From Andreprevotia sp. IGB-42 (GTDB lineage: Bacteria > Pseudomonadota > Gammaproteobacteria > Burkholderiales > Chitinibacteraceae), in NCBI RefSeq assembly GCF_009848685.1, contig NZ_WXTX01000002.1, positions 62,001-126,000 on the forward strand: a DNA stretch of 64,000 nucleotides, read 5' to 3'. The first letter of the stretch is position 1, and every line of letters begins with the position of its first letter. The position numbers and the translations under genes are program-made. Positions 965 through 19,807 of the stretch are shown here, one piece after another. The notes below the pieces were generated by a model, which saw only the letters and a program-made list of their open reading frames with translations, did no database searches and was not told the origin of the DNA.

Positions 965-3520
965 TCACTTGATGTTGCTGATCAATGCCTGGCACTCGGC
1001 CGCAGTGACGTTCTCGCCGCACGTGGCGATCTGGTCTTGCGGCTTGCCATCGGCGGTGTCGGTCAGCAGCTTGTTGCCCAGCACGTGGTTGACCGCGTTG
1101 AGGTTGTAGCCGTTGTCCTGCTCCACTTGCCAGAAGAACACGCCGCCCAGTTGCTTGTCTTTTGCGTACTGGGTTTTCAGCGCTGCGGTACGCGGTGTTT
1201 CCGTGGTGATGAACGACCAGCCAGCCGGGCCGATCGGGTTTACCAGGTAATCCGCATTGCTGAGCTTGTCGGTGTACAGGTGATAGCCATTGCGCGGTTT
1301 CAGGTCACGATCCAGATAGTTCTGGTACAGATCGTAGCCTTCGACCACACCCGCTTCCCACGAGCCCACGCCGGCAATGCCGGTGATGAAGGCGGTACCG
1401 GTCCAGCCGGCATCGCCAAACGTGGTATCACCCTTCAGGCCATTGGTGTACTCCTTGATGTCGCCCGGCAGGATGGCTTTGGCGCGGTGGTAGTTGGCCA
1501 CGCCGATCATCATCTTGTTGAACGGCACACCGTACTGGCTGTTCAGGTACTCGATGGTCCAGCTTGCCGATACGCCGGTGGATGAGCCATTGGCGTTGGG
1601 GTTGGTGTACAGCGGCGTGTGATGGCTGATGTTACGCTCCCATGCCCCGGTCAGGTCATAGGTCATCACGTACAGGCGATCGAGATACTTGTTGATTTCA
1701 CGCCAGTCCAGCTTGTCGAGCGGGCCCTTGGTGGCCGGTATGGCCGACGACAGGCGATACTTCTTGCCGGTCTTGACCGTCAGCCAGTCCATGCCTGCAC
1801 GCAGATCCTTCAACAGCTGCAGATAGTTCTGCGGATCATCCGGGCGGGCCATGCCGTCGACTGCACCATCGGTGGCCGGGTATTCCCAGTCGATGTCGAT
1901 GCCGTCGAAGTCGTAGCGCTGCAGGAAGCTGACGATGGAATCAACGAAAGCCTTGCGGCGCGTTGCATCGGATGCCATCCACGGGAAGCCTTCGGACAAT
2001 GTCCAGCCACCGACCGACAGATCCAGATGCAGGTTCGGGTTGGCCTTGCGATGGTTGTACAGCACGCCGAATACGCCGGCGACATCATCCTTGCCGATGT
2101 CGTACATGCTTTCCGCACCGCTGATCTTGGCCGTTTGCCCGCCGTTGAGATTGCGCAGGAACGCAGCTTCGAAGTCGGCCATGGCCATTGCACCATCCGG
2201 CAGCTTGGATTGCTTGCAGGTACGCAGTACCGCAGCCGGCGCGGTGGTCGGGAAGCCCGGGGCCTGGGTGTTCTTGGCGGCCGGGTAGCAGATACCCGCA
2301 AACCCATATACCAGACGGTCCAGGTTCTTCACCGGCAGCTTGCTGAAGTCGAACTGGCGGCCATAGATCGCCCAGTCGCCCAGATAAGCCACGCGTTCCT
2401 GGCCGGCGGCCGGCTCGTACACGTTGTGCTGCAACGGCAGGCTGCCTGGCGGCAACTTGGCGACGCGGCCACCGGTATCCGAATCGAAGCCGGGGTGGTT
2501 GCCGCCCGGGTCGGTAGCCGGGTTGATGCCGCCGCGGGTACCGGTCAGCGTGGATGCGGTATTGGAAATACGCGTGGTGGAAAGCTTGCCCGCAGCCAGC
2601 ACTTTGCCGGAATTGGGGTTGCCGGCCACCGGCTGCGGCGTACCGTAGTTGATGTTGTTCGGCACGGTAACCGGGCACAGCTCGGTATCGGGCACGCCGA
2701 CCAGCTTCCACTGGTTGGTGTATACGGTGCTGTCCGGCGGAATCGCGTAGGTATCAACCAGCGCCTGGTAGGCCTTGCCGCTGTAGCCGGCAATGGCGCC
2801 CTTGGCGTAGATCTTGGTAGCCAGGTAATCCGGCGCGCAGAAGTGTGCGCTCGGCAGCGGGGTCGGGGTGGGCCCGGGTGGACCGCTAGGCACCGGTGTC
2901 GGCGTGCCGCATGGGCCGCCAGGCAACCACAGCGCCGGTACATTGGCCGGATCCCAGCCCACTTGTGCGGTGTGTGCTGCACGTGCGGTATACGACAGGC
3001 CGTTGTAGCTCACGTTCAGGCCCACGGTCACTGCCAGTCCAGGCGCCCAGGCCACGCAGCCGGTCACCGGGGTCGGTGTGACGACAGGTGGTGTCGGCGT
3101 GACCGGTGGCGTACTCGGGGTAGGCGTGACCGGACGTGGCGTTGCCGTCACGATGGGGGTGGGAGTGACCGGGCGCGGGGTGGTGGTGACGATCGGCGTA
3201 GGCGTGACCGGGCGTGGCGTAGCGGTCACGATCGGGGTGGGGGTAGGCGTTACTGGGCGCGGGGTTGCCGTCACTGCCGGGGTCGGTGTGGTGGAGGGCG
3301 TTGCACCCAGGTCCTGCCAAAGCGTGGGCGTAGCGGCGGGGTTCCAGCCGGCACCCGCGTAGGCAGTATGGGTAACCAGTGCCTTGTAGTCGTGGCCGTT
3401 GTAGCTGACGACGGTACCGGAACTATAGGTACTGCCTTCTTGCCAGGCAGGTGCGGCATACACAGCCGCAGCCGCCAGGAGCGAGAGCAGAAGCCCCGCC
3501 CAGCGTTTTTTTCGAATCAT
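965..3520 (-). CDS. Secreted GH18 chitinase Chi-1 with three chitin-binding modules
   Basis: Endo- or exo-acting hydrolase of beta-1,4-linked GlcNAc polymers, exported by Sec. Residues 1-22 form a signal peptide (MIRKKRW then a hydrophobic core ending VYA). Residues 24-70 are a CBM5/12 module. A long TPTP linker with TATPRPV units follows, then a second CBM-like module (GCVAWAPG to PALWLPGG) and a third (HFCAPDYL to NQWKLVG). The GH18 barrel spans about 375-825 with SVGGW and the catalytic motif DGIDIDWEYP, Glu546 being the acid/base. MTYDLTGAW and a late tryptophan (FFWQVEQDNG) resemble ChiA/ChiB-type barrels. The tail has two cysteines (CGENVTAAEC). Start: the ATG at 3520 is preferred over 3529, because AAGGA lies 9 bases before 3520 but only one base before 3529. 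The protein is 851 residues, the longest of the six. Confidence 0.93.
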   Translation of the reverse strand: MIRKKRWAGLLLSLLAAAAVYAAPAWQEGSTYSSGTVVSYNGHDYKALVTHTAYAGAGWNPAATPTLWQDLGATPSTTPTPAVTATPRPVTPTPTPIVTATPRPVTPTPIVTTTPRPVTPTPIVTATPRPVTPTPSTPPVTPTPPVVTPTPVTGCVAWAPGLAVTVGLNVSYNGLSYTARAAHTAQVGWDPANVPALWLPGGPCGTPTPVPSGPPGPTPTPLPSAHFCAPDYLATKIYAKGAIAGYSGKAYQALVDTYAIPPDSTVYTNQWKLVGVPDTELCPVTVPNNINYGTPQPVAGNPNSGKVLAAGKLSTTRISNTASTLTGTRGGINPATDPGGNHPGFDSDTGGRVAKLPPGSLPLQHNVYEPAAGQERVAYLGDWAIYGRQFDFSKLPVKNLDRLVYGFAGICYPAAKNTQAPGFPTTAPAAVLRTCKQSKLPDGAMAMADFEAAFLRNLNGGQTAKISGAESMYDIGKDDVAGVFGVLYNHRKANPNLHLDLSVGGWTLSEGFPWMASDATRRKAFVDSIVSFLQRYDFDGIDIDWEYPATDGAVDGMARPDDPQNYLQLLKDLRAGMDWLTVKTGKKYRLSSAIPATKGPLDKLDWREINKYLDRLYVMTYDLTGAWERNISHHTPLYTNPNANGSSTGVSASWTIEYLNSQYGVPFNKMMIGVANYHRAKAILPGDIKEYTNGLKGDTTFGDAGWTGTAFITGIAGVGSWEAGVVEGYDLYQNYLDRDLKPRNGYHLYTDKLSNADYLVNPIGPAGWSFITTETPRTAALKTQYAKDKQLGGVFFWQVEQDNGYNLNAVNHVLGNKLLTDTADGKPQDQIATCGENVTAAECQALISNIK
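3062..3294 (-). repeat. Thr/Pro linker repeat in Chi-1
   Basis: Low-complexity coding repeat with units encoding VTPTPIVTATPRP and close variants, repeated about five times. The DNA is imperfectly periodic, with GTGACCGGxCGxGG-type blocks on the plus strand. It is a flexible inter-domain linker. Comparable but shorter TP linkers lie at about 5045-5205 and 5385-5555 (Chi-2), 7060-7235 and 7420-7515 (Chi-3), 8795-8890 and 9065-9225 (Chi-4), and 10590-10650 and 11215-11335 (Chi-5). Confidence 0.85.
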
Positions 3521-3656
3521 CTCTTCCATTCCTTCTTCTTATGAACCCAGATGAACGCTGCCGTATGCTCGACAGCGCGCTTGCTCGCCAACGGCCGGTC
3601 GGGTGCCGATCGCTGAATCCGCCTCCAGCCGGAAAACACCATGGGCAAACTGGGCC

Positions 3657-3684
3657 ATCGTAGATAAATGCAGAATGGTGTCAA
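3657..3684 (-). promoter_or_regulatory. Candidate sigma-70 promoter of Chi-1
   Basis: On the minus strand a perfect -35 box TTGACA (3684-3679) is followed by a 16-base spacer and TACGAT (3662-3657), four of six matches to the -10 consensus. Predicted transcription start is near 3650, giving a leader of about 130 nt before the ATG at 3520. Found by eye only. Confidence 0.5.
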
Positions 3685-3686
3685 TG

Positions 3687-3722
3687 TGTTTCAAATGAAC
3701 ACAATCCTTTGATTTTCAAAGG
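3687..3722. promoter_or_regulatory. Two adjacent palindromes abutting the Chi-1 -35 box
   Basis: GTGTTtcaaatgAACAC (3687-3703; 5-bp arms, 7-base centre) and CCTTTGAtttTCAAAGG (3706-3722; perfect 7-bp arms, 3-base centre) sit two bases apart, immediately upstream of the candidate -35 box. The position fits an activator or repressor operator pair. The cognate regulator is unknown. Confidence 0.45.
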
Positions 3723-4020
3723 TTTTAATTTAAAAATATTAACGAATATTGATATTTGGTAAGCTGGAAAATCAAACTACATACCCATCTGCCGGGCAGG
3801 GGCTTGCGATTACGCCTGCAAGCGCCGTCATGCGCCCGCTTTGCCGCTTTATGGCAATAAACGCCGCTTTTAATTACGAATATCTTACGATCAAAAATCA
3901 GGTGTTCCCCTACCGTGCAGGCAATCCAGCTGCCAGCCGGCCATGCCGCGGTGTTGCATTTGCCCAACGCCCACGCCCTCCCTGAGCGGCATGCAGCGCG
4001 CGGCGAACGGACAGTCCATG

Positions 4021-4047
4021 AAAAAGGCCACCCCGCAAGGTGGCCTT
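4021..4047 (-). terminator. Intrinsic terminator of Chi-2
   Basis: Nine-bp stem AAGGCCACC/GGTGGCCTT (4024-4032, 4039-4047). On the minus strand it is followed by TTTTT. It lies 20 bases beyond the Chi-2 stop, so Chi-2 and Chi-1 are probably transcribed separately. Confidence 0.9.
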
Positions 4048-4067
4048 GAAGAACCGCGTTGATCCGC

Positions 4068-5786
4068 TTAGTTCGGGTATTGATTCAGATAAGCCTTGTG
4101 GCCCTTGGCGAACGAGTAGTTGCTGCTCTTGTCCCAGTTCACCGACCAGGTCATCACACCGCGGAAGTCCGGGTAGGCGGCGCTTGGCTTGTAGCCGGCG
4201 CAGTTGCTGCCCTTCATCAGGCAATCGAGCGCTTGCTGTACGCCAGCGTTGGACAGATAGCCACCCGACGGTGCTGCACCGCTGGTTGCCGGCAGGCCCA
4301 GGCTGAGCTGATCCGGGCGCAGTGCCGGGAACGGCTTGCTCGGATCGCGGTTCACGTTGAAGCCCTTGAGCATCATGTCGGTCAACGCGACAGCGAAATC
4401 AACCGTGCCCTGGTTGTAGTTCTTCTCGTCCGTCGCGGTGATGCCGCCGGTGTTGTAGAGCTGAACGTGCAGGATGGTCAGTTCATTGCGCAGGCCGTAG
4501 ATGATCGGCAGGTAAGCGCCCCAGATGCCGCCATTCACGCCATAGCCACCCTGTACATACGCCACTTCCGGCGCCATCGTGATCATGAAGTTGGCACCGA
4601 AGCGTGCTTTCAGCGCCTTGGTGGCTGCGATCAGGTTGACGATCTGCGGGGTGGTCGGGTTGCGGTAGTCTTCACCGGCGGCCATCGACAGGTTGTTTTC
4701 GATATCGATGTCGATACCGTCAAAGCCATACTTGGCAATGATGTCGCCCATGGTCTTGATGAAGATGTCACGTGCGGCAGTATTGCCCAGCACGATCACG
4801 CCATTGGCGCCGCCCAGCGAGATCTGCACTTTCTTGCCGGCAGCCTGCTTGGCCTTGATGTCGGCAATGAAGTCGGCTTCGTTGAATGCCTTGTCGAGCA
4901 CGAATGCAGCGGTACCGGCAGGTGCGAACGGATCGCCTTCGGCGAACGACACGTTGATGATGTCGTATTCGGCCGGTACGTCCTTCAGGCGCATCGTGCC
5001 GGTGCCGTTGTCGAAGTTGTGCCAGTAGCCTTCAACCACATGTTTGGGCAGGCCGGTGACCGGAACGCTGGTCACAGGCACCGTGGTCGGTGTCGGCGTA
5101 ACGCCCGGCAGCGGCGTCGGGGTGACAGCCGGTACCGGCGTTGCGGTCGGCTTCGGTGTGGCGGTAACGATCGGGGTTGGCGTGGCCGGGCCCGGGGTCG
5201 GTGTCGGGCCACAAACACCCAGGTCGTTCCACGGCTTGCCGTCGCCGGTGTTGGCGGACGGGGTATCGCCGCTGGTCCACCATTTGGCGGAATAGGTACG
5301 GCCGTTGTAGCTCACTTGCGCACCGCCGTTATAGGCAGTCGTGCTGGACCAAGCGGCAGCGGTACAACCGCCGGCCGGTGTGGTCGGTGTCACGGTCGGC
5401 ACCGGGGTGCTGGTGGGCTTGGGTGTGGCGGTCGGCGCGGTGGTCGGCTTCGGTGTGGCTGTCGGGCCGGATGTCGGCACGGCGGTCGGAGCCTTGGTCG
5501 GCACAGGGGTGGCAGTCGGCGCGCTGGTCGGCGTTGTGCCGGTATCCACGCCCAGATCTTGCCACAGTGTCGGGGTAGAGGCCGGGTTCCAGCCTGCGCC
5601 AGCATAGGCGGTATGGGTAACCAGTGCCTTGTAATCATGGCCGTTGTACAACACCACGGTACCTGCACTGTAGGTCGAACCTTCGGCCCAAGTCGGGTAG
5701 GCTGCGTTTGCGGCAATCGAACCTGCGAGCAAAACGGCAGCAAGCATACCCGTCATACGCGCGGAGGCGCGTTTACGATTTTGCAT
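4068..5786 (-). CDS. Secreted GH18 chitinase Chi-2 with two chitin-binding modules
   Basis: Exported chitinase of 572 residues. Signal peptide about 1-28 (MQNRKRASAR, hydrophobic core, SIAANA). CBM5/12 module about 30-77 (YPTWAEG to PTLWQDLG). TP linker. Second CBM about 140-195 (CTAAAWSS, YNGGAQVSYNG, AKWWTSGD). Second TP linker, then a compact GH18 barrel about 249-572 starting KHVVEGYW. The substrate strand SLGGANG and catalytic motif DGIDIDIE are present, with Glu363 as proton donor. It lacks the DWE form and shows no alpha/beta insertion, so it resembles ChiC/ChiD-type chitinases (subfamily B), usually non-processive. Start: ATG 5786 with GGAGG six bases upstream; ATG 5792 touches the Shine-Dalgarno sequence and is unlikely. 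Terminators on both sides imply its own transcript. Confidence 0.93.
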   Translation of the reverse strand: MQNRKRASARMTGMLAAVLLAGSIAANAAYPTWAEGSTYSAGTVVLYNGHDYKALVTHTAYAGAGWNPASTPTLWQDLGVDTGTTPTSAPTATPVPTKAPTAVPTSGPTATPKPTTAPTATPKPTSTPVPTVTPTTPAGGCTAAAWSSTTAYNGGAQVSYNGRTYSAKWWTSGDTPSANTGDGKPWNDLGVCGPTPTPGPATPTPIVTATPKPTATPVPAVTPTPLPGVTPTPTTVPVTSVPVTGLPKHVVEGYWHNFDNGTGTMRLKDVPAEYDIINVSFAEGDPFAPAGTAAFVLDKAFNEADFIADIKAKQAAGKKVQISLGGANGVIVLGNTAARDIFIKTMGDIIAKYGFDGIDIDIENNLSMAAGEDYRNPTTPQIVNLIAATKALKARFGANFMITMAPEVAYVQGGYGVNGGIWGAYLPIIYGLRNELTILHVQLYNTGGITATDEKNYNQGTVDFAVALTDMMLKGFNVNRDPSKPFPALRPDQLSLGLPATSGAAPSGGYLSNAGVQQALDCLMKGSNCAGYKPSAAYPDFRGVMTWSVNWDKSSNYSFAKGHKAYLNQYPN

Positions 5787-6048
5787 GATCATCCTCCATC
5801 AGGATTTGTCAGCCGGCGCCGTTGCCACGACCCCCGCCCATTTAGGCCCGGGATCGGCGTCCCGGTGCGCATTGCCGCGTGCCACAACACCTGCTCTGGC
5901 ACGGACAACGCTGTAATCTTAAAGCTTTCATGTAGTAAATCCAGCCCTGCTACGAAAAAGTTCATACGGCTGTGATGTATTTGTCACTTCGTAAAGTTAA
6001 GCAAACATCCAGCAAAAACAACGTAGGCATGCGGTAAGCAATCGCATG

Positions 6049-6076
6049 AAAAAACCGGGGCATAAGCCCCGGTTTT
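6049..6076 (-). terminator. Intrinsic terminator downstream of Chi-3
   Basis: Eleven-bp stem AAAACCGGGGC/GCCCCGGTTTT with an ATAA loop (6051-6061, 6066-6076) and T-rich flanks on both strands. It lies 28 bases after the Chi-3 stop and would close the probable Chi-5/Chi-4/Chi-3 transcript. Confidence 0.9.
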
Positions 6077-6103
6077 CTTTACTGCCTGCAAGCGGAAAAG
6101 CAG

Positions 6104-7756
6104 TTACGGCAGCGTCTTCAGCGCGGCAGCAGCCGGCTTGGAGAAGTTGTAACCGTCGTGCTTGTCCCAGTTGATCGACCAGGTCATCACGCCGCGGTAA
6201 TCCGGGTACGCCTTGGACGGCTTGATCGAGCCGCAACCCTGCAGCTTGGTCAGGCAGTTGAGCGAATCGGCCACCACTTGCGCGGTCACAAAGCCACGAC
6301 CCGCAGACTGGTTGCCGGACGGCACACCGAATGCCACCTGGTCAGGACGCAGACCCTTGAACTCCCAACCCGTACCGTAGTTGACCTTGAAACCTTCGAT
6401 CAACATCAGGCTGCCACCGACCAGGGCATCAACGGTACCTTCGTTCACCATGGCACCATTGGTGTAAGTGAAGCCGCCGTTGTTGTAGTACTGCACGTGC
6501 AGCACGCTCAGATCATCACGCAGGCCGTCGATGATCGGCAGATAGGCACCCCAGATGCTGCCATAGGAGATATAGCCACCCTGTACATACGGATGCTCGG
6601 GCGCCATCGACAGGTAGAAGCTCGGGCCGATCTTGGCTTTAAGCTGCTTCACGCCGGTGATCAGGTTGTTGATGATCGGTGCGCCGCTGGAAACGCCACT
6701 GCCACTTTCCAGATCAAGGTCGATACCGTCGAAGCCATACTTGGTCAGGATGCCGTACAGGCTATTGACGAAGTTGGTCACGTCGGACGCGGTGTTCAGC
6801 GTGATCGAACCATCCTGACCACCCAGCGACAACACGACCTTCTTGCCCTTGGCACGCTTGGCGGCAACATCGGCGATGAACTGCGCTTCGCTACCGGCAT
6901 GGCTGTCGAGGTTGAAGGCGACATTACCGTTGCCGGCATTGTCTGCAAACGCGATCACGATCACGTCCCAATCATCGGAAACCTGCGCGACCGGGAAGGT
7001 ATCGCCAGCCGGATTGGTGAAGTTGTGCCAGTAGCCTACCAGCGCGTGCTTGGGCAGCGTGCCCGGCACAACGGTCGGCGGCACCGAAGTCGGAGTCGGC
7101 GTGATGACCGGCTTGGTCGTCGGTGTCGGCGTATTGGTGACAACCGGAGTCGGCGTGACCGGCTTGGTAGTCGGCGTCGGTGTATTGGTGATGATCGGTG
7201 TCGGTGTTACCGGGCGGGTAGTCGGGGTCGGGGAAACCGAGCCGCCATTGCAAACGCCCACGTCATTCCAAGGTTTGCCGTCACCGGTGCTGGAAGACGG
7301 CACGTCACCACTGGTCCACCATTTGGCAGAATAGGTGTGGCCGTTGTAGCTGACCTGTGCGCCGCCATTATAGGCAGTGCTGCTGGACCATGCCGGCGCG
7401 GTGCAACCACCGGCTGGCGGCGTGGTCGGCGTAGCACTAGGCTGCGGGACAATGGTGACCGCTGCGGTGGGCGTTACCGGAGTCGATGTCGGTGTCGGGA
7501 CGGCGGTCACCGGCGTGCCGGCAACCACTTGCCACAAGGTCGGGGTGGAGGCAGGATTCCAGCCAGCGCCCACGTAGGCGGTATGGCTGACCAGTGCCTT
7601 GTAGTCAACATTGTTGTAAGTCACGACAGTGCCGGCCGTATAGGTGGCACCTTCTGCCCACTGCGGTGCAGCGTGGGCGGCCATGATGCCGCCTGCCATC
7701 ACTGCGGCAGCAATAACGCGCGTCAGAAGCGACGGGCGATGCTTACGATCTTGCAT
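6104..7756 (-). CDS. Secreted GH18 chitinase Chi-3 with two chitin-binding modules
   Basis: Exported chitinase of 550 residues. Signal peptide 1-29 (MQDRKHRPSLL, core, MAAHA). CBM5/12 about 30-78 (APQWAEGATYTAGTVV). Short TP linker. Second CBM about 117-174 with YNGGAQVSYNG and AKWWTSGD. A linker with repeated TPTPTTKPVTPTP units, then a subfamily-B-like GH18 barrel about 235-550 beginning KHALVGYW. It has SLGGQDG and the catalytic motif DGIDLDLE (Glu350). Most similar in layout to Chi-2; both barrels share PYVQGGY and GAYLPII, so they look like paralogues from a duplication. Start at ATG 7756 with GGAGGAG eight bases upstream. Probably last gene of a Chi-5/Chi-4/Chi-3 unit, with a 141-bp gap to Chi-4 and no T-run terminator in between. 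Confidence 0.93.
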   Translation of the reverse strand: MQDRKHRPSLLTRVIAAAVMAGGIMAAHAAPQWAEGATYTAGTVVTYNNVDYKALVSHTAYVGAGWNPASTPTLWQVVAGTPVTAVPTPTSTPVTPTAAVTIVPQPSATPTTPPAGGCTAPAWSSSTAYNGGAQVSYNGHTYSAKWWTSGDVPSSSTGDGKPWNDVGVCNGGSVSPTPTTRPVTPTPIITNTPTPTTKPVTPTPVVTNTPTPTTKPVITPTPTSVPPTVVPGTLPKHALVGYWHNFTNPAGDTFPVAQVSDDWDVIVIAFADNAGNGNVAFNLDSHAGSEAQFIADVAAKRAKGKKVVLSLGGQDGSITLNTASDVTNFVNSLYGILTKYGFDGIDLDLESGSGVSSGAPIINNLITGVKQLKAKIGPSFYLSMAPEHPYVQGGYISYGSIWGAYLPIIDGLRDDLSVLHVQYYNNGGFTYTNGAMVNEGTVDALVGGSLMLIEGFKVNYGTGWEFKGLRPDQVAFGVPSGNQSAGRGFVTAQVVADSLNCLTKLQGCGSIKPSKAYPDYRGVMTWSINWDKHDGYNFSKPAAAALKTLP

Positions 7757-7785
7757 TTTGGGTACTCCTCCATCATTGGTGATAA

Positions 7786-7806
7786 GCCGCCGCCAATGGC
7801 GGCGGC
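7786..7806 (-). promoter_or_regulatory. Intercistronic GC hairpin between Chi-4 and Chi-3
   Basis: Perfect 9-bp inverted repeat GCCGCCGCC-AAT-GGCGGCGGC with a three-base loop. No T run follows it on either strand, so it does not look like a terminator. It sits 30 bases before the Chi-3 start codon in the presumed polycistronic leader and could stabilise RNA ends or set the relative expression of the two genes. Confidence 0.5.
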
Positions 7807-7897
7807 CATGTCATGCAGGGCTGGATTCCCGCATGGAATGGGCGGGGTGGTGTTCCACCCTCACCCTCACTGCATGCTGCAGATCATGCGGGTGCGA

Positions 7898-9463
7898 TCA
7901 GAATGCACCAAAAATCTTGCTGAAATCCCATTGCTGTTGACTGATGCCACTGCACTGCCAGTTTGCCGCAGTACTGCCCGGGCAGTTGCCGTTGTCACGC
8001 CCCAGCGACCAGAAAGCCAGACGTGCCATGCCCTTCTGCTTGGCAAAATCGCGGACGATCTTTGCATCATTCAGCGTGAACACTTCGGTCGGATTGTCGT
8101 TCTGGCCAATCATGGCCGTTGCAGACAGCATCGCCCAGTACTGTGCATCGGTCTTGCCTGGCCACAGTGCCTTGATCTGGCTGAATACATTCTGCAATGC
8201 CAGCACCGAACGGTCACCCATCTGGTTGCCCGATACACCATCGTAGTAGTCCATGATCATCGGGTTGATGACATTGACCTCGACACCGGCGTTCTTGGCC
8301 GACTGCAGCACGTAGAGGTTCTCCGCGTCGAACCCCGGGCTAGGATGCACGCCCAGCGTGAACGAAATGTACACAGTCTTGCCCTTGGCCTTGAAGCGAT
8401 CCTGCAGGATCTTCAATGCGGCATTGCGGCGATCGACGATGGTGGCATCCAGGTTATTCTGGCTGTCGCCATGCTCCGGGTCCAGATCGAGATGATCGGC
8501 GCCAAAACGCTCCAGCACGTTTTCATAGATGGTGGCGATGGATGCGGCATCGGTACAGCTGCGCGCGATATCGCTGGCATTCCAGCCGCCAGACGAAATG
8601 ATCACGTTGCCGCCCAGAGCACGTAGCGATGCGGCCTGGCTGATCAGATTGGATTCACTACCCGGCCAGCCGCCGTTGCAGCCACCTGCCGAGTTGAAGA
8701 ACGCCAGCGAGACGAAGCGCCCACCGGTGCTCTGTGCCCAGCCCGGCAGATCCACATTGCCGCTCACATCGATATACGGCGCGAAACGGTAGCCGGTAAC
8801 CGGCGCTGTCGTGGGAGTGGGGGTCGGCGTGATGGACGGGTTGGTGGTCGGCGTGATCACCGGGGTCACGATCGGCGTCGGGGACGGGCCGGAACCATCG
8901 CAAGGGCCGGCATCGGTCCACGGCTTGCCATCGCCGGTATTGGACGACGGCGTGTCACCACTGGTCCACCATTTGGCGGTGTATTTGCGGCCGTTGTAGC
9001 TCACCTGCGCGCCGCCGTTATAGGCGGTGGTGCTACTCCACACGGCAATGGTGCAGGTGCCGGTAACCGGGGTCGGGCTGGCGGTGATGACAGGCGTCGG
9101 CGTCGTGGTCGGTGTGGGTGTGACCGGTTTGGGCGTGACGGTGACTGTCGGGGTCGGGGTAACCGGTTTGGGTGTCGCGGTGACCGTCGGGGTCGGGGTA
9201 GGCGGCTGCGGCGTCGGTGTTGCACCGGTGCTCACGCCCAGATCCTGCCACAGCGTGGGGGTGGAGGCCGGGTTCCAGTTGGTACCCGCGTAAGCGGTAT
9301 GGGTAACGATGGCTTTGTAATCGTGGCCGTTGTAGCTGACAACGACGCCAACCGTGTAGGTGCTGCCTTCCTGCCATGCGGGCGCGGCGTGCGCGGCCAT
9401 CACGGCGCCGGCCATGGCAATGGCGAGCAGCCAGCCACTCAGGCGATTCCTGCGTACTTGCAT
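7898..9463 (-). CDS. Secreted GH18 chitinase-like Chi-4 with divergent catalytic domain
   Basis: Exported protein of 521 residues. Signal peptide 1-26 (MQVRRNRLSGW, core, MAAHA). CBM5/12 about 27-75. TP linker with VTPTPTVTVTPKP units. Second CBM about 136-191 (CTIAVWSS, YNGGAQVSYNG, AKWWTSGD). The catalytic part begins about residue 230 with RFAPYIDVSG and has SSGGWNASDIA and DHLDLDPEHGD; Glu330 fits the DxxDxDxE glutamate. The sequence is clearly unlike Chi-1, -2, -3, -5 and -6 and recalls the archaeal PF-ChiA-like GH18 group (assignment from motifs only). Start at ATG 9463 with AAGGAG six bases upstream, rather than a longer frame from 9493. Likely co-transcribed with Chi-5 (114-bp gap). 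Confidence 0.87.
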   Translation of the reverse strand: MQVRRNRLSGWLLAIAMAGAVMAAHAAPAWQEGSTYTVGVVVSYNGHDYKAIVTHTAYAGTNWNPASTPTLWQDLGVSTGATPTPQPPTPTPTVTATPKPVTPTPTVTVTPKPVTPTPTTTPTPVITASPTPVTGTCTIAVWSSTTAYNGGAQVSYNGRKYTAKWWTSGDTPSSNTGDGKPWTDAGPCDGSGPSPTPIVTPVITPTTNPSITPTPTPTTAPVTGYRFAPYIDVSGNVDLPGWAQSTGGRFVSLAFFNSAGGCNGGWPGSESNLISQAASLRALGGNVIISSGGWNASDIARSCTDAASIATIYENVLERFGADHLDLDPEHGDSQNNLDATIVDRRNAALKILQDRFKAKGKTVYISFTLGVHPSPGFDAENLYVLQSAKNAGVEVNVINPMIMDYYDGVSGNQMGDRSVLALQNVFSQIKALWPGKTDAQYWAMLSATAMIGQNDNPTEVFTLNDAKIVRDFAKQKGMARLAFWSLGRDNGNCPGSTAANWQCSGISQQQWDFSKIFGAF

Positions 9464-9577
9464 GTTTGACTCCTTTGCGGCGGCCCGCACCACGGTCGAT
9501 GCAGGGCCGCCTGGACAGGGCGGTTTTCAAGGCTGGATGCGGCAGACCCTGGAGGGCCTGCGGCACTGCGCTACGGC

Positions 9578-11566
9578 TTATTGGCCGAAGTAAGCGCGAT
9601 AGCTCTTGGAAAACTCGAAGTTGTTGTACTTGTCCCAGTTGATCGACCAAGTCATCAGACCGCCCAGACCCGGATAGGTTTTGGCTGGCTTGTAGGTACC
9701 ACAATTGCTGCCCTTCATCAGGCAATCGAGCGCCTTGGTCATTTCAGCCGGGCCGACAAACCCGCCGCCGGCATTCACGTTGGCCGGGATACCGATCACC
9801 ACCTGATCCGGGCGCAGTGCCGGGAACTGGAAGCTGCTGCCGGAGATCTTGAAACCGGACAGTGTCATATCGGTCATCGCCACGTGGAAATCGGCATTGC
9901 CCATCGAGTGGTAGGTGTTGTCGAGACCAGTAACCGGGCCCGAGTTGTAGTCCTGCACCTGCAACCAGTTCAGATCGTTGCGCAGCGCGTAGATCACCGG
10001 CAGGTAGGCACCGGCACGTGTATCGCAACCGGCGCAGTTGCCGCCGTAGAACTGGTAGCCCAACTGTACGAAGAACGTTTCGGGTGCCATGGTCAGCATG
10101 AAGTTGGCGCCGTACTTGGCCTTCAGCGTCTTCAGTGCGGAGATCAGGTTGACGATCACGGGCGATGTGGGGTTGGCCACATCGTTGTCTCCGGCATTGA
10201 GCTGCAGCGAATGACCTTCGAAGTCCACGTCCAGACCGTTCAAGCCGTACTTGTCGACAATCGCCGAAACCGAGCTGACGAATGCGTCACGTGCTGCGGC
10301 GCTTTCCAGACGAACCTGGCCGTTGGCGCCACCGATGGAGATCAGCACCTTCTTGCCCTTGGCCTGCTTGGCCTTGATGGCGGCGATGAAATCGGCTTCG
10401 GATTCAACGTTCGGGCACTCGGTCGACGGGCAGAGCTTGAATGCAACCTGGCCGCTGGTCGACGAAGTCGGCTCGGCGAACGACAGATTGATCACATCCC
10501 AGTCATCCGAGATATCCGCCATGCGGATATAGCCGGAGCCATTGGCAAAGCTGGCATGCAGATACCCCACCAGCAGCTTGCGACCCGGGTTCGGCGTCGG
10601 CGTGACCGGTGTCGGCGTCACGGTGACGATCGGTGTCGGCGTCACGATGGAGCCGGTGACCTGCACGGTTTTCGCTGCGCCATTGCCGCACTTGGCGAAA
10701 TTGGCGTTGCATACCTTGACGAAGTAAGTATGCGTGCCCTTGCTGACGTTGGTCAGCTTGCCGGATGTACTGTAGTAGGCCTTGTTGTTGACGAAATCGT
10801 CACCAATCGTATAAGGACCGGTACCGCTCAGTACCACGAGCGAACCTTCCATGACAAACCAGTTGACCGGTGCGCCGAGTTCAGCGGAATCAATGGTCCA
10901 GGTCACGCTGACAGACGATGCCGGGCCTTCGGTGAAGGTGGAGGTGATATTGGCCGGCACGCCAGCGGGCGGCTGGAACGGAACCGAAGACGGTGTAGGC
11001 GAGATGGTCGGAGTCGGGGTGCTGGTCGGTGTCGGGGTGACCGAAACGCCGCAAGGGCCGGTATCCGTCCACGGTTTGCCATCGCCGGTATTGGCAGAAG
11101 GGATATCGCCGCTGGTCCACCATTTGGCGGAATACTTGCGGCCGTTGTAGCTGACCTGCGCGCCACCGTTATAGGCGGTGGTGGTGCTCCAAGCAGCAAC
11201 ACTACAGCTGCCCACTACCGGCGTCGGTGTGCTGGTGACAACCGGCGTTGGCGTATTGGTAACGGCAGGCGTCGGCGTAGCCGGCTTGCTGGTCGGTGTC
11301 GGCGTGGCGGTCGGGCCAGGCGTCGGCGTGGTGCCGCTGGTTACACCCAGGTCTTGCCACAGCGTCGGTGTGGAAGCGGGATTCCAGCCTGCGCCGGTAT
11401 AAGCGGTGTGGCTGACCAGTGCCTTGTAATCGTGGCCGTTGTAACTGACCACTACACCGGCGGAATAGGTATTGCCTTCCTGCCAGGCAGGGGCGGCGAA
11501 TGCGGCAACGACGCTACCGGCCATGAACATAGCCGTCAGCAGCCGCGTGATGCGCGAGCTTTTCAT
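9578..11566 (-). CDS. Secreted GH18 chitinase Chi-5 with ChiA-type Ig-like domain
   Basis: Exported protein of 662 residues. Signal peptide 1-24 (MKSSRITRLL to VAAFA). CBM5/12 about 25-71. Linker. Second CBM about 120-176. Residues about 202-304 form a beta-rich domain (VSVTWTIDSAELG, YFVKVCNANFAKCG) resembling the N-terminal Ig/FnIII-like domain of Serratia ChiA. The barrel runs about 325-662 with SIGGANG and the motif NGLDVDFEG: catalytic Glu450 is present, but the first Asp of DxxDxDxE is Asn443. The barrel otherwise resembles Chi-2 and Chi-3. Start at ATG 11566, with GGAGAGAG four bases upstream and a proper signal peptide; the frame is open to 11809 but the extension has no signal sequence. 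First gene of the presumed Chi-5/Chi-4/Chi-3 unit. Confidence 0.92.
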   Translation of the reverse strand: MKSSRITRLLTAMFMAGSVVAAFAAPAWQEGNTYSAGVVVSYNGHDYKALVSHTAYTGAGWNPASTPTLWQDLGVTSGTTPTPGPTATPTPTSKPATPTPAVTNTPTPVVTSTPTPVVGSCSVAAWSTTTAYNGGAQVSYNGRKYSAKWWTSGDIPSANTGDGKPWTDTGPCGVSVTPTPTSTPTPTISPTPSSVPFQPPAGVPANITSTFTEGPASSVSVTWTIDSAELGAPVNWFVMEGSLVVLSGTGPYTIGDDFVNNKAYYSTSGKLTNVSKGTHTYFVKVCNANFAKCGNGAAKTVQVTGSIVTPTPIVTVTPTPVTPTPNPGRKLLVGYLHASFANGSGYIRMADISDDWDVINLSFAEPTSSTSGQVAFKLCPSTECPNVESEADFIAAIKAKQAKGKKVLISIGGANGQVRLESAAARDAFVSSVSAIVDKYGLNGLDVDFEGHSLQLNAGDNDVANPTSPVIVNLISALKTLKAKYGANFMLTMAPETFFVQLGYQFYGGNCAGCDTRAGAYLPVIYALRNDLNWLQVQDYNSGPVTGLDNTYHSMGNADFHVAMTDMTLSGFKISGSSFQFPALRPDQVVIGIPANVNAGGGFVGPAEMTKALDCLMKGSNCGTYKPAKTYPGLGGLMTWSINWDKYNNFEFSKSYRAYFGQ

Positions 11567-12321
11567 TGAACTCTCTCCAATCCTTATAATTTGAATGGCC
11601 AGTCTGAAACCGGCCGATATACAGCGGTACAGCAAACGGCGCGCAGGCGGAAACGCACGCATATCCGGGCAGAAAAACAGCCCGGTCAAGCGCATACCAC
11701 CGGCAATGCCGGTACGACCGTATTCAAAAGTCTTCTTTGTTGGTATGAAAGGGGCGGTTTGCTTAGCCGCACGATGGGCAGGCTTTGCGCCTGTCCAGCC
11801 TTTCGTCAACGCATGGGGTCACCAGTGCGTCCGCAGCGCGAAGCCTTTGTAGCGTCGCTTTCAATGCCTATTCTGGCCTGCAGGTTGATATTGCGACTGG
11901 ATCACGCCAAATGTCAAAAATATTTCCCATTGATTTAATTGAGAAAATTCTAATTTATTGGTTTAATGATCGATTATGACAAAACCACTTGCGATAGCAG
12001 GGCCAGTCATTTAAAACCAGCACATAGACGCTTGAATTTGCAGGGCGTGCTGCAGCTTCCGATCCGGGCGATCAGTCAGCGCAACAATCGTCCAGTCGAA
12101 ATCAGGACAAAAAAATAGCCGGGCGCAAGCCCGGCCATCAAGATGATGAAGAAGGAGAACCAACGACATAAGGCTGGGTAGTCCACACCCCGCCGAGCCA
12201 GTCAGCTCTTGTCGAAATACCACGACAGCAAACTAGTGCTTTCGCGCGACACCCCGACAATACAGGCTTGTGGTGTCGGCTTGAATGTCAGAATATGACG
12301 TCAACTTGTTCGAATCGCTCA
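11567..12321. other. Intergenic region between Chi-5 and the AraC regulator
   Basis: About 750 bases. It holds the Chi-5 leader, an AT-rich block at 11905-11980, and an orphan minus-strand terminator (separate entry). On the minus strand TTGACA lies at 11917-11912, with CAATAT about 18 bases further. That -10 is a poor match, so promoter status is weak and the leader would be over 300 nt. TGACGTCA, a perfect 8-bp palindrome, lies at 12296-12303 just before the preferred araC-type start. No supported gene was found. Confidence 0.6.
12109..12135 (-). terminator. Orphan minus-strand intrinsic terminator
   Basis: Stem GCCGGGC/GCCCGGC with a GCAA loop (12118-12124, 12129-12135), followed on the minus strand by TATTTTTTT. 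No recognised minus-strand gene lies between it and the AraC gene on the other strand. Upstream short frames end in TGA: one ends SWYFDKS (about 12213) and another ends VVGSPSSSS (about 12140). It may be the remnant of a lost gene or end a small RNA. Confidence 0.75.
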
Positions 12322-13197
12322 ATGACCACTCCATTTCACGAATACTTCGAAGTCTCGCCAACTACCGTCCAGCAAAGCGTTGGTGCACGGGTGTTTTACA
12401 AGCCCTATTTGCGTGCACTCAATGACTATGACGTGATGCTCACTGGCATTACCGATGCGCACGACAGTTTTCATGTCGAGCGCACCGGCGCGCCGTTTCA
12501 TGTGGTGCTGTTCGCGCTGGATGGCAGCGGCGAGATCACCGACGGAGAAGCACACCAGCCATTGCCGGCCGGCCACGTTGCCATTCTGCCCGCAGGTCGC
12601 CGTGGTGGCTTCCAGCTCACCGGCTCCAGCTGGCGGCTGGTGTGGTTCCTGCTGAACGACAGCCCGCGCTGGAGTGCCCTGCAGATCGAGGCGCCACAGG
12701 TACGTCCGGCGCGCAGCCCCGCCAGCCTGTACCCGGCAGTGGCCACGCTGTGCGAAGAGGCATGGCTATCGGAATTCGATCAATCACTGGCCACCCCTGC
12801 ACTCACGCTGGTGATGCAACTACTGCAGCGCGAACTCAATACCGAACCGCAAACCAGTGATGTAGCTTTGCGGCTGCAACGCCTGTTTGGTCCGGTGTTG
12901 CTGTACCCCGCCCGCCCTTGGCGTGTAGATGCATTGGCTGCCGAATTTGGCGTCAGCGTTGCGCATTTCCAGCGCCTGTGCGTGCGCTACCTTGGTGCAT
13001 CGCCACAGCAGATGCTGCTGTCACACCGGATGAACCGGGCCATGGAAATGCTGCAGGCCGGCATGGGCAGTGTGGGGGAAGTAGCCACCGCCACCGGCTA
13101 CGAGGAAATCGCCAGCTTCTCCCGCCGCTTCACGCAGCATTTCGGCATGGCGCCCAGCATCGTGCTGCGCCGGCGCGGCCAGCTCAATCCGCCATAA
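12322..13197 (+). CDS. AraC/XylS-family transcriptional regulator
   Basis: DNA-binding regulator of about 291 residues. The N-terminal half (residues about 15-140, PFHVVLFALDGSGEI, PAGHVAILPAGRRGGF) is a cupin-like ligand-sensing domain. The C-terminal about 100 residues hold the two helix-turn-helix motifs: RVDALAAEFGVSVAHFQRL and VGEVATATGYEEIASFSRRF, followed by FGMAPS. It is embedded on the opposite strand in the chitinase island between Chi-5 and Chi-6, so control of chitinase genes is the natural guess, unproven. Start uncertain: ATG 12322 gives the usual family length; ATG 12295 and TTG 12268 are in frame, and none has a clear ribosome binding site. The palindrome TGACGTCA at 12296-12303 would be upstream if 12322 is right. 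Confidence 0.88.
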   Translation: MTTPFHEYFEVSPTTVQQSVGARVFYKPYLRALNDYDVMLTGITDAHDSFHVERTGAPFHVVLFALDGSGEITDGEAHQPLPAGHVAILPAGRRGGFQLTGSSWRLVWFLLNDSPRWSALQIEAPQVRPARSPASLYPAVATLCEEAWLSEFDQSLATPALTLVMQLLQRELNTEPQTSDVALRLQRLFGPVLLYPARPWRVDALAAEFGVSVAHFQRLCVRYLGASPQQMLLSHRMNRAMEMLQAGMGSVGEVATATGYEEIASFSRRFTQHFGMAPSIVLRRRGQLNPP

Positions 13198-13638
13198 ACG
13201 GCTGGCGCGGCTGCAGCTCACTCCACCGCAGTGCGATGCCGGCCATTCCAGCACACCGTGCGCAAGCGATGGTCTCGATTACCCGGTCATGTTACTCCCC
13301 CACCCTGGCGGAAACCCTGACCGTGCTCTGCGCCCCAAGCTAACGCTAACACTGTGAGCTTGCGCAACACGGCGATCAATCGCCAGCAGGTCGTTGAGCC
13401 GCAGCAGAGCAACGACACAGATCTGTGTTCACGACATACTCCGGCAAGCAACAGACCCGGGATGAGCCACCGGCAGCACCAGGCGGATGCCAAAGCCGCC
13501 ATGGCCCGCGCACGCCCCAGACAGGGCGGCACGACCCAAGCAGCCGTTAGTCATCATCGCAACCGCTGGCAGCAGTCTGCCCCACTCCGGCCCGGCCACA
13601 ATGACTGAAGAGATGCCAGGCATTTCCTGCAGCCAAAG
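13198..13638. other. Intergenic region without supported gene
   Basis: About 440 bases after the AraC-type gene and before the Chi-6 terminator. Short frames exist on both strands, but they lack ribosome binding sites and show the Arg/Ala/Gln/His-rich composition of random high-GC frames. No terminator for the AraC gene was recognised. Confidence 0.6.
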
Positions 13639-13667
13639 AAAAAGCCCTCCCGTTTCCGGGAGGGCTT
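13639..13667 (-). terminator. Intrinsic terminator of Chi-6
   Basis: Eleven-bp stem AAGCCCTCCCG/CGGGAGGGCTT with a TTTC loop (13642-13652, 13657-13667), followed on the minus strand by TTTTTCTTT. It lies 38 bases past the Chi-6 stop. Confidence 0.92.
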
Positions 13668-13704
13668 CAATCAACTACTGTTTATTGCTTTGTCTTGCTA
13701 CCGA

Positions 13705-15714
13705 TTACTGGCGAACTGCACTCATCGCGTTCATCAGGGTACCGGTCGAATCATCGCCATCGAGCGACCAGCTGAACAGACCTGCCAGACCATTTGTCTT
13801 CACGTATGCAGACTTGGTGGCGATGTTGTCAGTGGTGTCGTAGGACCAGAAGGTCGAGCCGTCAAACTTCCACGATTGCTTGGTGGTTGCATTGGTATAC
13901 ACGGTACCCGCTGCGTTCTTCAGCACCTTGTAGTCCTCGATGCCAGCTTCGTAGGTACCGGTCGCTGCCTTCGCTGCCTTCTGGTACAGACCGTTGTTGG
14001 CATTCGTCACGCCAGTCCAGCCACGACCGTAGAACGGGATACCGACGACAATCTTGGAGGCCGGTGCACCACCTGCGACGAGGTTCTTGATCGCACGGTC
14101 GATGTTGTACTCGGCACCCAGACCTGGCAGACCAGTCTTGGGATCGATATGGTTCGGGCTGTTCGGATCCGGATACAGATGCGAATGGAAGTCCGTCGGG
14201 CCTGTTGCTTCCCAACCGCCGTGGAAGTCATAGGACATCAGGTTGATCCAGTCCAGCGACTTGCTGTACTCGCCCGGTTCGGACATGTCGATCTTGTCCT
14301 TGCCAGCGCCGATCGCGACAGTCAGCGCGTACTTCTTGCCGGTGGTTGCAGTCACAGCGTCCAGTTGCTTGCGGAATTCTGCGAGCAGCAGGGTGTTGTT
14401 CTGCTTGTCAGCCGGCGAAACGGTGTTGTAGCCGAAGCCTTGAACGCCCGGGAATTCCCAGTCGATATCGATACCGTCAAATACGCCAGCCGCTGCACCG
14501 GTGCCGCCTGCGCCGTCATAAACCGGCAGGTTGCCCTTGATGTAGGTGTTGATGCACGACGAAACCAGCTGCTTGCGCAGTGCGTCGGTTTGCGAAGCTG
14601 CGGAGAACCACTTGGACCACGACCAGCCGCCCAGCGAGATGAACACCTTCAGGTTCGGGTTCAGTGCCTTCAGGCGCTTGATCTGACCGAAGTTGCCGCG
14701 CAGTGCGTCGTCCCACTTGTCGGCTACGCCGTTCACCGAACCGGCTGCATCGAAGGACTTGCTGTAGTCGGCAAACGGATCGCCACCATCGCCGTTACCG
14801 GATTCGGTACGGTACTGGATGTCACATTCGTAGCCACCGTTCTTCTGGTAGACGTTACCGAACGCGTAGTTCAGGAAGGTCATCTTGGCAGCGGAACCGC
14901 TGGTCTGGATGTTCTTCACTTGATAGCCGCGACCGTAGATGCCCCACTGTGCGAAGTAGGAACCCACTTGACGACCGGTAACCGGCGGGATGGTCGGGCC
15001 AGTTGTCGGTACGACTGTCGGAGCGATTGTCGGTGCCACGGTCGGAGCGACGGTAGGTGCAACAGTCGGAGCCACGGTCGGCTTGACGGTCGGTGCTACT
15101 GTCGGGCCGGTTGTCGGTGCAACGGTAGGTGCAACTGTCGGAGCCACGGTCGGCTTGACGGTCGGTGCCACTGTCGGCGCAACGGTCGGTACGGTTGTGG
15201 AGCCACCGCATACGCCCAGATCGGTCCAGGGCTTGCCATCACCGGTGCTGGAGGACGGCACGTCGCCGCTGGTCCACCACTTGGCCTGGTAGTTGCGGCC
15301 GTTATAGGTAACTTGTGCGCCGCCGTTGTAGGCAGTGCCTGCAGCCCATACTTGATAGCAGCCAGCGGACGGAGCCGGTGTTGCTGTCGGAGCGGCAGTC
15401 GGTGCTACTGTCGGAGCGGTAGTCGGCTTGGCAGTCGGTGCAACTGTCGGAGCGACAGTCGGAACCGGAGTAGCAGGAGTACCAGTGCTGGCACCCAGAT
15501 CGCCCCACAGTGTCGGGGTGGTGGACGGAGTCCAACCGGCGCCGACATAAGCGGTGTGGGTAACCAGTGCCTTGTAGTCATGACCACTGTAGCTGACGAT
15601 GGTGCCAGCCGAGTAGGTATTGCCTTCTTGCCATGCCGGATATGCGGCAACAGCTTGAACTGCGATCAGCGCAGCGGGTACAGCAGCAAGCGCAAAACGA
15701 TTGAAGTGCGACAT
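13705..15714 (-). CDS. Secreted GH18 chitinase Chi-6, subfamily A type
   Basis: Exported chitinase of 669 residues. Signal peptide 1-24 (MSHFNRFAL to VQAVAA). CBM5/12 about 25-73. A linker of APTVAPT-type units instead of the TPTP units used by Chi-1 to Chi-5. Second CBM about 116-171. A second, longer APTV linker about 173-242, then a GH18 barrel 243-669. It has SLGGWSWSKWF, catalytic DGIDIDWEFPG (Glu420), LMSYDFHGGWE, GIPFYGRGW and a terminal LFSWSLDGDD. These, with the segment between the last barrel strands (GLYQKAAKAATGTYE onward), match subfamily A enzymes with the alpha+beta insertion that deepens the cleft, often processive. Start at ATG 15714 with GGAG eight bases upstream, giving a proper signal peptide. 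Own terminator and leader, so probably monocistronic. Confidence 0.94.
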   Translation of the reverse strand: MSHFNRFALAAVPAALIAVQAVAAYPAWQEGNTYSAGTIVSYSGHDYKALVTHTAYVGAGWTPSTTPTLWGDLGASTGTPATPVPTVAPTVAPTAKPTTAPTVAPTAAPTATPAPSAGCYQVWAAGTAYNGGAQVTYNGRNYQAKWWTSGDVPSSSTGDGKPWTDLGVCGGSTTVPTVAPTVAPTVKPTVAPTVAPTVAPTTGPTVAPTVKPTVAPTVAPTVAPTVAPTIAPTVVPTTGPTIPPVTGRQVGSYFAQWGIYGRGYQVKNIQTSGSAAKMTFLNYAFGNVYQKNGGYECDIQYRTESGNGDGGDPFADYSKSFDAAGSVNGVADKWDDALRGNFGQIKRLKALNPNLKVFISLGGWSWSKWFSAASQTDALRKQLVSSCINTYIKGNLPVYDGAGGTGAAAGVFDGIDIDWEFPGVQGFGYNTVSPADKQNNTLLLAEFRKQLDAVTATTGKKYALTVAIGAGKDKIDMSEPGEYSKSLDWINLMSYDFHGGWEATGPTDFHSHLYPDPNSPNHIDPKTGLPGLGAEYNIDRAIKNLVAGGAPASKIVVGIPFYGRGWTGVTNANNGLYQKAAKAATGTYEAGIEDYKVLKNAAGTVYTNATTKQSWKFDGSTFWSYDTTDNIATKSAYVKTNGLAGLFSWSLDGDDSTGTLMNAMSAVRQ
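15052..15195 (-). repeat. 72-bp tandem duplication in the Chi-6 linker
   Basis: A 72-bp unit beginning GGTAGGTGCAAC (plus strand) at 15052 is repeated at 15124 with only a few substitutions in its first three quarters. Each unit encodes 24 residues, i.e. six VAPT/VKPT four-residue steps, so the array has nested 12-bp and 72-bp periods. Flanking DNA (14985-15051) has the same 12-bp period. It keeps the frame when units are gained or lost. Confidence 0.85.
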
Positions 15715-19656: not shown

Positions 19657-19807
19657 GGCGGCAGCTAATCTTAGGAACGTAAGTAGGCACGCCGCGCAAA
19701 TCACCCGCTGTCGCAAGACGGGGTTTCCACGACGCAAATCGGCGCTATTCTAGCAAATAGTCGCCCCCGACGGGGCGCTTCCTGACAGGTAATACTGAGG
19801 AATCACC

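Follow-up and report, generated by a model that had tools for sequence, protein, structure and literature searches.

Chitin-binding modules of a secreted chitinase cluster in Andreprevotia ripae appear to evolve in concert across the genome, with catalytic barrels inherited as orthologues

A 64,000-nucleotide stretch of contig NZ_WXTX01000002.1 (positions 62,001 to 126,000, hereafter the window) from the soil bacterium Andreprevotia sp. IGB-42 carries six open reading frames for GH18 chitinases, Chi-1 to Chi-6, on its minus strand between positions 965 and 15714. Each predicted protein has two carbohydrate-binding modules (CBMs) of the CBM5/12 type, CBM1 and CBM2, in front of a catalytic barrel. 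We propose, with a probability of roughly 0.75, that this is a secreted chitin-degradation cluster whose binding fronts belong to a genome-wide pool evolving in concert by ectopic recombination, and whose barrels are inherited as orthologues. The window almost certainly derives from Andreprevotia ripae IGB-42 and represents the published cluster IGB42_00610 to 00616, because both the gene order (five adjacent GH18 genes, IGB42_00610 to 00614, then regulator 00615 and chitinase 00616) and an odd fourth gene, with Met in place of Tyr, match the paper of Lorentzen et al. (2021, PMC8802321). What looks new here is that the binding cassettes evolve together within a species and the barrels keep separate histories. 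A literature search, with most subscription papers outside it, found no report of concerted CBM evolution in bacterial chitinases.

All six proteins contain two CBM_5_12 domains and one Glyco_hydro_18 domain above the Pfam cut-offs. The CBM_5_12 matches are far beyond chance (E-values 4e-24 to 2e-29), and the PF00704 match of Chi-4 is marginal (29.9 bits against a cut-off of 29.6). Across the window, CBM1 is 79% identical in amino acids and 74% in nucleotides (15 pairs), and CBM2 is 82% and 78% identical (10 pairs, without Chi-1, whose CBM2 is of another type). The signal peptides are 41% identical in amino acids (15 pairs), which places them outside the shared cassette, and the alignments thus point to the two CBM5/12 modules and their linker as the shared unit. 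The original prediction had described near-identical front parts that included a common export part; this description fails for the signal peptides. Identity at fourfold-degenerate sites is not far above the codon-usage expectation in CBM1 (0.500 against 0.448), CBM2 (0.614 against 0.444) or the barrels (0.557 against 0.480), so the window copies must be old.

The same modules are found throughout the assembly that contains the window (4,706,501 bases in 52 contigs). PF02839 has 94 matches there, 92 of them above the cut-off, and PF00704 has 25; the two sets occupy 59 open frames in total. The order of CBM1 followed by a WW-type CBM2 occurs in 23 genes, five of them in the window. By Pfam, what lies downstream of the cassette in the other 18 is GH18 in nine cases (two of which score under the cut-off of the family), GH19 in two cases, and GH16, GH46, PL14, a CE2/GDSL esterase and a metallophosphatase in one each; of the remaining pair, one has a lamin-tail domain only and the other a third CBM with no further named domain. 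Among these 23 cassettes, that of Chi-6 is nearest to genes on two other contigs, C51 and C34 (0.82–0.83 nucleotide identity). These counts indicate that the binding modules are not special to the locus and that their sharing is genome-wide.

Orthologous clusters could be read in related genomes, allowing barrels and cassettes to be placed in separate trees. The trees use the simple LG+G4 model, with gene classes named beforehand, and cover 18 Chi-2, Chi-3 and Chi-5 genes from eight genomes. Chi-1 is left out of the cassette trees for its different CBM2, and seven of 14 stretches from relatives, which hold few cluster genes, are left out of the module comparison and of both kinds of tree. Also excluded from the counts are a one-CBM gene of A. 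lacus, the cassette of A. lacus Chi-6, the front of which lies beyond the contig end, and, in genome G013, a Chi-6-type first module cut at the stretch end. The barrels group by gene, with support of 100/99 for Chi-5 (eight rows), 100/100 for Chi-2 and 100/100 for Chi-3 with its duplicate, and a constraint holding Andreprevotia and Jeongeupia together is rejected (p 4e-69). The cassettes of the same 18 genes instead split into Andreprevotia plus Jeongeupia and Chitiniphilus plus Chitinolyticbacter (100/100). Here it is the gene clades that are rejected, for Chi-3 (p 5.6e-6) and Chi-5 (6.2e-6), and the gene label changes 7 times against a shuffled mean of 7.6. A tree of 39 cassettes repeats the lineage split and rejects single clades for Chi-3 (p 3e-9), Chi-4 (2e-7) and Chi-5 (2e-9). 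The disagreement of these trees, set beforehand as the test, bears out the earlier suggestion that binding modules and barrels have different histories.

Amino acid identities agree with the trees. Between A. ripae and A. lacus, CBM2 of Chi-2 to Chi-5 is 0.745 identical for orthologues, 0.763 for non-orthologues across genomes and 0.841 for paralogues within a genome, and 20 of the 24 pairings of the cluster CBM2 modules are at least as good as the true one. The barrels of Chi-2, Chi-3 and Chi-5 in the same two species keep a clear orthologue signal (0.871 against 0.440). Against C. shinanonensis, A. ripae CBM2 is 0.484 identical for orthologues and 0.500 for non-orthologues, with 0.808 within a genome. 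By contrast, the other-type CBM2 of Chi-1, which lacks a similar partner, keeps its orthology (0.78 against 0.38–0.40). Paralogues are therefore closer than orthologues for CBM2 in the cluster and between genera, less so for CBM1, and only in part genome-wide between A. ripae and A. lacus. Of the cassettes read, 17 of 17 in C. shinanonensis, 18 of 19 in A. chitinilytica and 19 of 22 in A. lacus have their closest cassette within their own genome. Together with the orthologue comparisons given below, these values argue that the erasure of orthology takes time and is stronger for CBM2 than for CBM1, and in A. ripae it looks more advanced inside the cluster than outside.

The strongest species-wide uniformity of modules is seen in A. 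chitinilytica (L168, L237–L266). Of the 29 frames of this species in which a first non-WW module is listed, 22 have QTDY there in place of HTAY; a longer loop is common to 18 of its 20 WW-type modules, and one of the remaining two is cut.

Evidence at the DNA level comes from tracts copied between paralogues in two relatives, which do not tell crossover from one-way conversion. In C. eburneus, nucleotide identity between Chi-4 and its paralogue Chi-5, taken per 12 codons, is 0.94–1.00 over a tract that begins just past the signal peptide at codon 36 and closes near codon 120, where linker 1 ends; compared with the orthologue of Chi-4, the same tract reaches 0.81–0.94. In the barrel, from codon 216, the order is reversed (0.36–0.67 for the paralogue, 0.86–1.00 for the orthologue). 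In A. lacus, two genes about 3.4 kb apart have in common an 810-bp tract of 95.3% identity, which runs from the start codon through the signal peptide, both modules and the linkers, and their barrels are 49% identical over 354 amino acids. The ends of these tracts are close to module borders, as would be expected if recombination depended on local likeness.

Fourfold-site identity in excess of the codon-usage expectation is also raised in the modules of several relatives. The excess is 0.43 for both modules of A. chitinilytica (barrels 0.05, between genomes 0.13–0.29), 0.31 for both in C. shinanonensis (barrels 0.20, between genomes 0.09–0.26) and 0.27 for CBM2 of A. lacus (barrels 0.08, between genomes 0.16–0.21). 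A strict blastn scan for tracts of at least 90 nucleotides at 92% identity picks up a single gene pair in A. lacus and, in A. chitinilytica, three pairs formed by three frames that seem cut at locus or contig ends. It finds none in C. shinanonensis, a weak negative as the C. eburneus tract also escaped the scan, probably because less similar neighbouring sequence lowers the identity of that block below 92%. A reverse case occurs in the genome taken as C. meiyuanensis (L164, frames 7126–8835 and 11199–13643), where two Chi-3-type genes have 1006 bp of barrel in common at 98.4% and carry different fronts.

Several observations weigh against this reading. C. shinanonensis and C. eburneus, whose Chi-3 and Chi-5 barrels are 97% alike, still have orthologous CBM2 modules (0.947 against 0.804), and 14 strict orthologue pairs between A. 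ripae and A. lacus retain an orthologue signal in both modules (P 0.0005 each). Across eight strict pairs with C. shinanonensis, the signal is lost for CBM2 (P 0.35) and kept for CBM1 (P 0.001); across six with A. chitinilytica, it is weakly kept for CBM2 (P 0.02), with P 0.12 for CBM1. The gene label is still clustered in the 39-cassette tree, with 21 changes against a shuffled mean of 26.1, mainly through Chi-6. With modules of only about 45 amino acids, many forks lack resolution; the lineage groups were defined once the alignment had been seen; and the loci read per relative genome are the best 30 (of 82, 57 and 58 matches) plus the cluster stretches. A. ripae itself is the least homogenised of the four genomes: its nearest cassette is at home in 8 of 23 cases, in A. 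lacus in 11 and in C. shinanonensis in 4. Its fourfold excess is not clearly raised for CBM1 (0.19; between genomes 0.15–0.24, barrels 0.14) or CBM2 (0.12; between genomes 0.09–0.16, barrels 0.14), nor is that of CBM1 in A. lacus (0.17 against 0.15–0.29 between genomes). The tract scan of 53 A. ripae frames was also empty, a weak negative given the tract it missed in C. eburneus. DNA-level support is thus weakest in A. ripae, and it is the relatives of this species that carry the argument for DNA exchange.

In the mechanism we envisage, the front formed by CBM1, a Pro/Thr linker and CBM2 would be a member of a genome-wide pool of cassettes evolving in concert, with the catalytic domains evolving as ordinary orthologues. 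Ectopic homologous recombination, as gene conversion or as crossover after duplication, would act on the cassettes, the stretch that is alike enough, and would spare barrels of different classes, which are too diverged (about 40% amino acid identity). The outcome would be a common grip on chitin kept by enzymes that cut differently, and in A. ripae exchange may be slow or old. Concerted evolution of the binding modules is highly probable on these comparisons, and recombination is fairly likely to be its main cause.

One alternative is convergent selection, in which the modules of one species adapt to the same chitin without DNA exchange. The lack of a clear synonymous excess within the genome over between-genome pairs, in A. 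ripae and for CBM1 of A. lacus, fits this explanation. Against it, synonymous likeness in both modules of A. chitinilytica and C. shinanonensis, and in CBM2 of A. lacus, exceeds that of their own barrels and of every between-genome comparison involving them. A loop-length difference common to many genes of one genome, and near-identical DNA tracts ending near module borders in two relatives, likewise make convergence alone improbable, although it may act on top of exchange.

The original prediction held that different barrels had been joined, in place, to copies of a single export and binding cassette. The differing histories of cassette and barrel and the module swap between cluster neighbours in C. 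eburneus are in line with this scenario. However, the signal peptides are not part of the shared unit. Copying in place is not supported, since dispersed genes from seven named catalytic families carry cassettes of this kind and the nearest cassettes of Chi-6 lie on other contigs. Nor is recent copying supported, given the age of the window copies at synonymous sites. Moreover, the same barrel classes occur in cassette-bearing orthologues of other genera, and their joining to cassettes therefore predates these species; we consider this scenario no more probable than convergence. Plain duplication of whole genes, with barrels diverging quickly and binding modules slowly, would also give alike cassettes and differing barrels within the window alone, and it has in its favor synonymous sites not far above expectation, the clearly old duplicates among the compact barrels of Chi-2, Chi-3 and Chi-5 and the orthologue signal surviving in some cassettes, but it is very improbable, since it predicts agreeing trees, whereas the cassettes sort by lineage in trees that exclude orthologue clades, and cluster CBM2 modules lack the orthologue signal that the barrels keep between two Andreprevotia species.

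If concerted evolution by recombination is correct, binding would evolve at the level of the genome and cutting at the level of the gene in modular secreted enzymes. It would account for the ability of one bacterium to hold dozens of chitin enzymes to a common surface. A broader version, for which we see even odds, treats the chitin-binding fronts found throughout the secretome (attached to GH18, GH19, GH16, GH46, PL14, esterase and other domains) as one recombining module pool, so that binding specificity would be set per species for all enzymes at once and catalytic specificity would be inherited per gene. Trees built from entire modular enzymes would then blend two histories, and module recombination would become measurable in nature in these chitin degraders.

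Features of the locus are collected in Table 1. Since the locus almost certainly corresponds to IGB42_00610 to 00616, the cluster, its expression and its prediction as not an operon are already published. Five of the six cluster chitinases are reported as up-regulated on chitin, and the operon call comes from Operon-Mapper (PMC8802321). That paper covers expression and domain counts; "recombination" and "duplication" are absent from its main text, and "concerted" and "evolution" occur once each, both in reference titles. The six GH18 genes probably encode an enzyme set acting jointly on chitin.

Table 1. Genes and modules of the chitinase cluster, in window coordinates
Feature	Coordinates	Strand	Basis or published counterpart
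Chi-1: GH18, two CBM5/12	965..3529	-	Open reading frame, Pfam; position fits IGB42_00610
Chi-2: GH18, two CBM5/12, compact 3n11-type barrel	4068..5792	-	Fits IGB42_00611
Chi-3: GH18, two CBM5/12, compact barrel	6104..7756	-	Fits IGB42_00612
Chi-4: GH18, two CBM5/12, 2dsk/9buf-type barrel, DLDPE, NPMIMDYY	7898..9463	-	Fits IGB42_00613
Chi-5: GH18, two CBM5/12, compact barrel, inserted extra module	9578..11566	-	Fits IGB42_00614
AraC-type regulator between Chi-5 and Chi-6	~12322..13197	+	Start is first ATG; fits IGB42_00615
Chi-6: GH18, two CBM5/12, 1kfw (chitinase B)-type barrel	13705..15714	-	Fits IGB42_00616
CBM1 of Chi-1	3314..3448	-	Genome-wide CBM5/12 profile search
CBM2 of Chi-1, different type, follows orthology	2927..3052	-	
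CBM1 of Chi-2	5559..5693	-	
CBM2 of Chi-2 (WW type)	5229..5354	-	
CBM1 of Chi-3	7529..7663	-	
CBM2 of Chi-3 (WW type)	7268..7393	-	
CBM1 of Chi-4	9245..9379	-	
CBM2 of Chi-4 (WW type)	8918..9040	-	
CBM1 of Chi-5	11354..11488	-	
CBM2 of Chi-5 (WW type)	11069..11194	-	
Extra module of Chi-5, ~135 amino acids, residues 186–320	10607..11011	-	phmmer
CBM1 of Chi-6	15505..15636	-	
CBM2 of Chi-6 (WW type)	15226..15348	-	

The tandem row first described is broken between Chi-5 and Chi-6 by a plus-strand AraC-type gene. The product of this gene matches HTH_18, HTH_AraC and AraC_binding in Pfam. An 88.6% identical relative occupies the same place between Chi-6 and Chi-5 in A. lacus, and a 43% relative adjoins Chi-4 in one other genus; the Chitiniphilus and Chitinolyticbacter cluster loci read have no match. 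A terminator-like hairpin lies past Chi-6 at 13668–13641. Promoter-like sites are rarer than in shuffled sequence (2 against 4.9) and terminator-like ones about equal (12 against 12.9), and no regulation is therefore claimed from them. The next large gene (16897–19737, minus strand) presumably encodes a phosphoenolpyruvate carboxylase.

By nearest solved structure, searched for Chi-1, Chi-2, Chi-4 and Chi-6, the window barrels are of at least four kinds. Chi-1 is closest to 5gzu and then 1edq (Chitinase A), Chi-6 to 1kfw, Chi-2 to 3n11, and Chi-4 to 9buf and 2dsk. Identity to Chi-2 is 51% for Chi-3 and 55% for Chi-5, and the barrels overall average about 40% amino acid identity over locally aligned parts. 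Chi-1 and Chi-6, first taken as one type, are 34% identical. Among the cluster loci read, only A. lacus has an orthologue of Chi-2. A weak third CBM-like stretch is present in six of seven Chi-1 orthologues. The extra module of Chi-5 has no phmmer match in A. lacus Chi-5 and nothing significant among solved structures (best E 0.33). Related modules sit within four further proteins: one from another A. ripae gene, and one apiece from A. lacus, C. shinanonensis and the genome taken as C. meiyuanensis.

All six window proteins keep the DxDxE catalytic motif. At the position of the catalytic Tyr, assigned by motif only and corresponding to Tyr214 in Serratia ChiB numbering (PMC8802321), five have Tyr and Chi-4 has Met. 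IGB42_00613 is marked "+/-" (possibly inactive) in the published figures, and its protein is reported as detected yet not regulated (PMC8802321); with the Met, this would fit a pseudo-enzyme serving chitin binding only. Over its whole length, however, the Chi-4 barrel matches 9buf (2e-34) and 2dsk (1e-31, with variants 3a4w and 3a4x), the next matches being partial and at 1e-4 or weaker, and its Met-Asp aligns to Met-Asp in both structures. We take 2dsk to be the catalytic domain of an archaeal chitinase, that of Pyrococcus furiosus, which by sequence would fall in the same subfamily as Chi-4; Chi-4 differs in being bacterial and in having two CBM5/12 modules in front. Endochitinase activity is indicated for the catalytic domain of P. 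furiosus PF1233 (PMC3575233). Among Chi-4-type genes, that of the window included, DxDxE is present in 13 of 13 and Met-Asp-Tyr in 12 of 13. A pseudo-enzyme is accordingly unlikely, and the published doubt about Chi-4 activity, judged from these motifs, may well be unfounded; the "possibly inactive" mark merits testing. A further Chi-4-type barrel, 61% identical to Chi-4 and with no CBM match, is encoded at G000:C51:85658–86647 (L175:2581–3651), outside the 25 PF00704 matches of the genome search.

GH18 diversity had been said to usually sit in separate loci, yet GH18 clusters of this bacterial family are in print, namely Chitiniphilus shinanonensis chiB-H and Chitinolyticbacter meiyuanensis Cm3633-3639 (PMC7641034). 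The loci read in C. shinanonensis and in the genome taken as C. meiyuanensis have Chi-1, Chi-3, Chi-4, Chi-5 and Chi-6 types as in the window. They differ in lacking Chi-2 and any relative of the A. ripae AraC gene, and their CBM2 is another lineage form than that of A. ripae. A ChiF-type gene is present in the C. shinanonensis cluster and absent from the genome taken as C. meiyuanensis. From its place, the C. shinanonensis gene at L071:8985–9830 (plus strand) is probably the published ChiF, described as having no catalytic domain; A. ripae has a copy at C34:135813–136661 (L271, L054:4314–5162). The conserved 282-residue C-terminal domain of this type contains HETGH (HExxH), followed 25 residues later by a conserved Glu, presumably a zinc-peptidase-like pattern. 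It occurs in five of 41 genomes searched, with four aligned copies 84–92% alike to the first. Profile searches give it no Pfam or significant solved-structure match, and its fold prediction is poor (predicted local distance difference test, pLDDT, 39.5).

A comparable system is the glucan degradation locus of Caldicellulosiruptor, a genus of another phylum, which encodes cellulases, often with two catalytic domains. Expansion of that locus by recombination after duplication has been proposed (PMC7142884). As described there, it resembles the chitinase cluster in encoding secreted enzymes whose differing catalytic domains are joined to repeated CBM3 modules. Unlike the Caldicellulosiruptor locus, the cassette pool of A. 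ripae extends across the genome.

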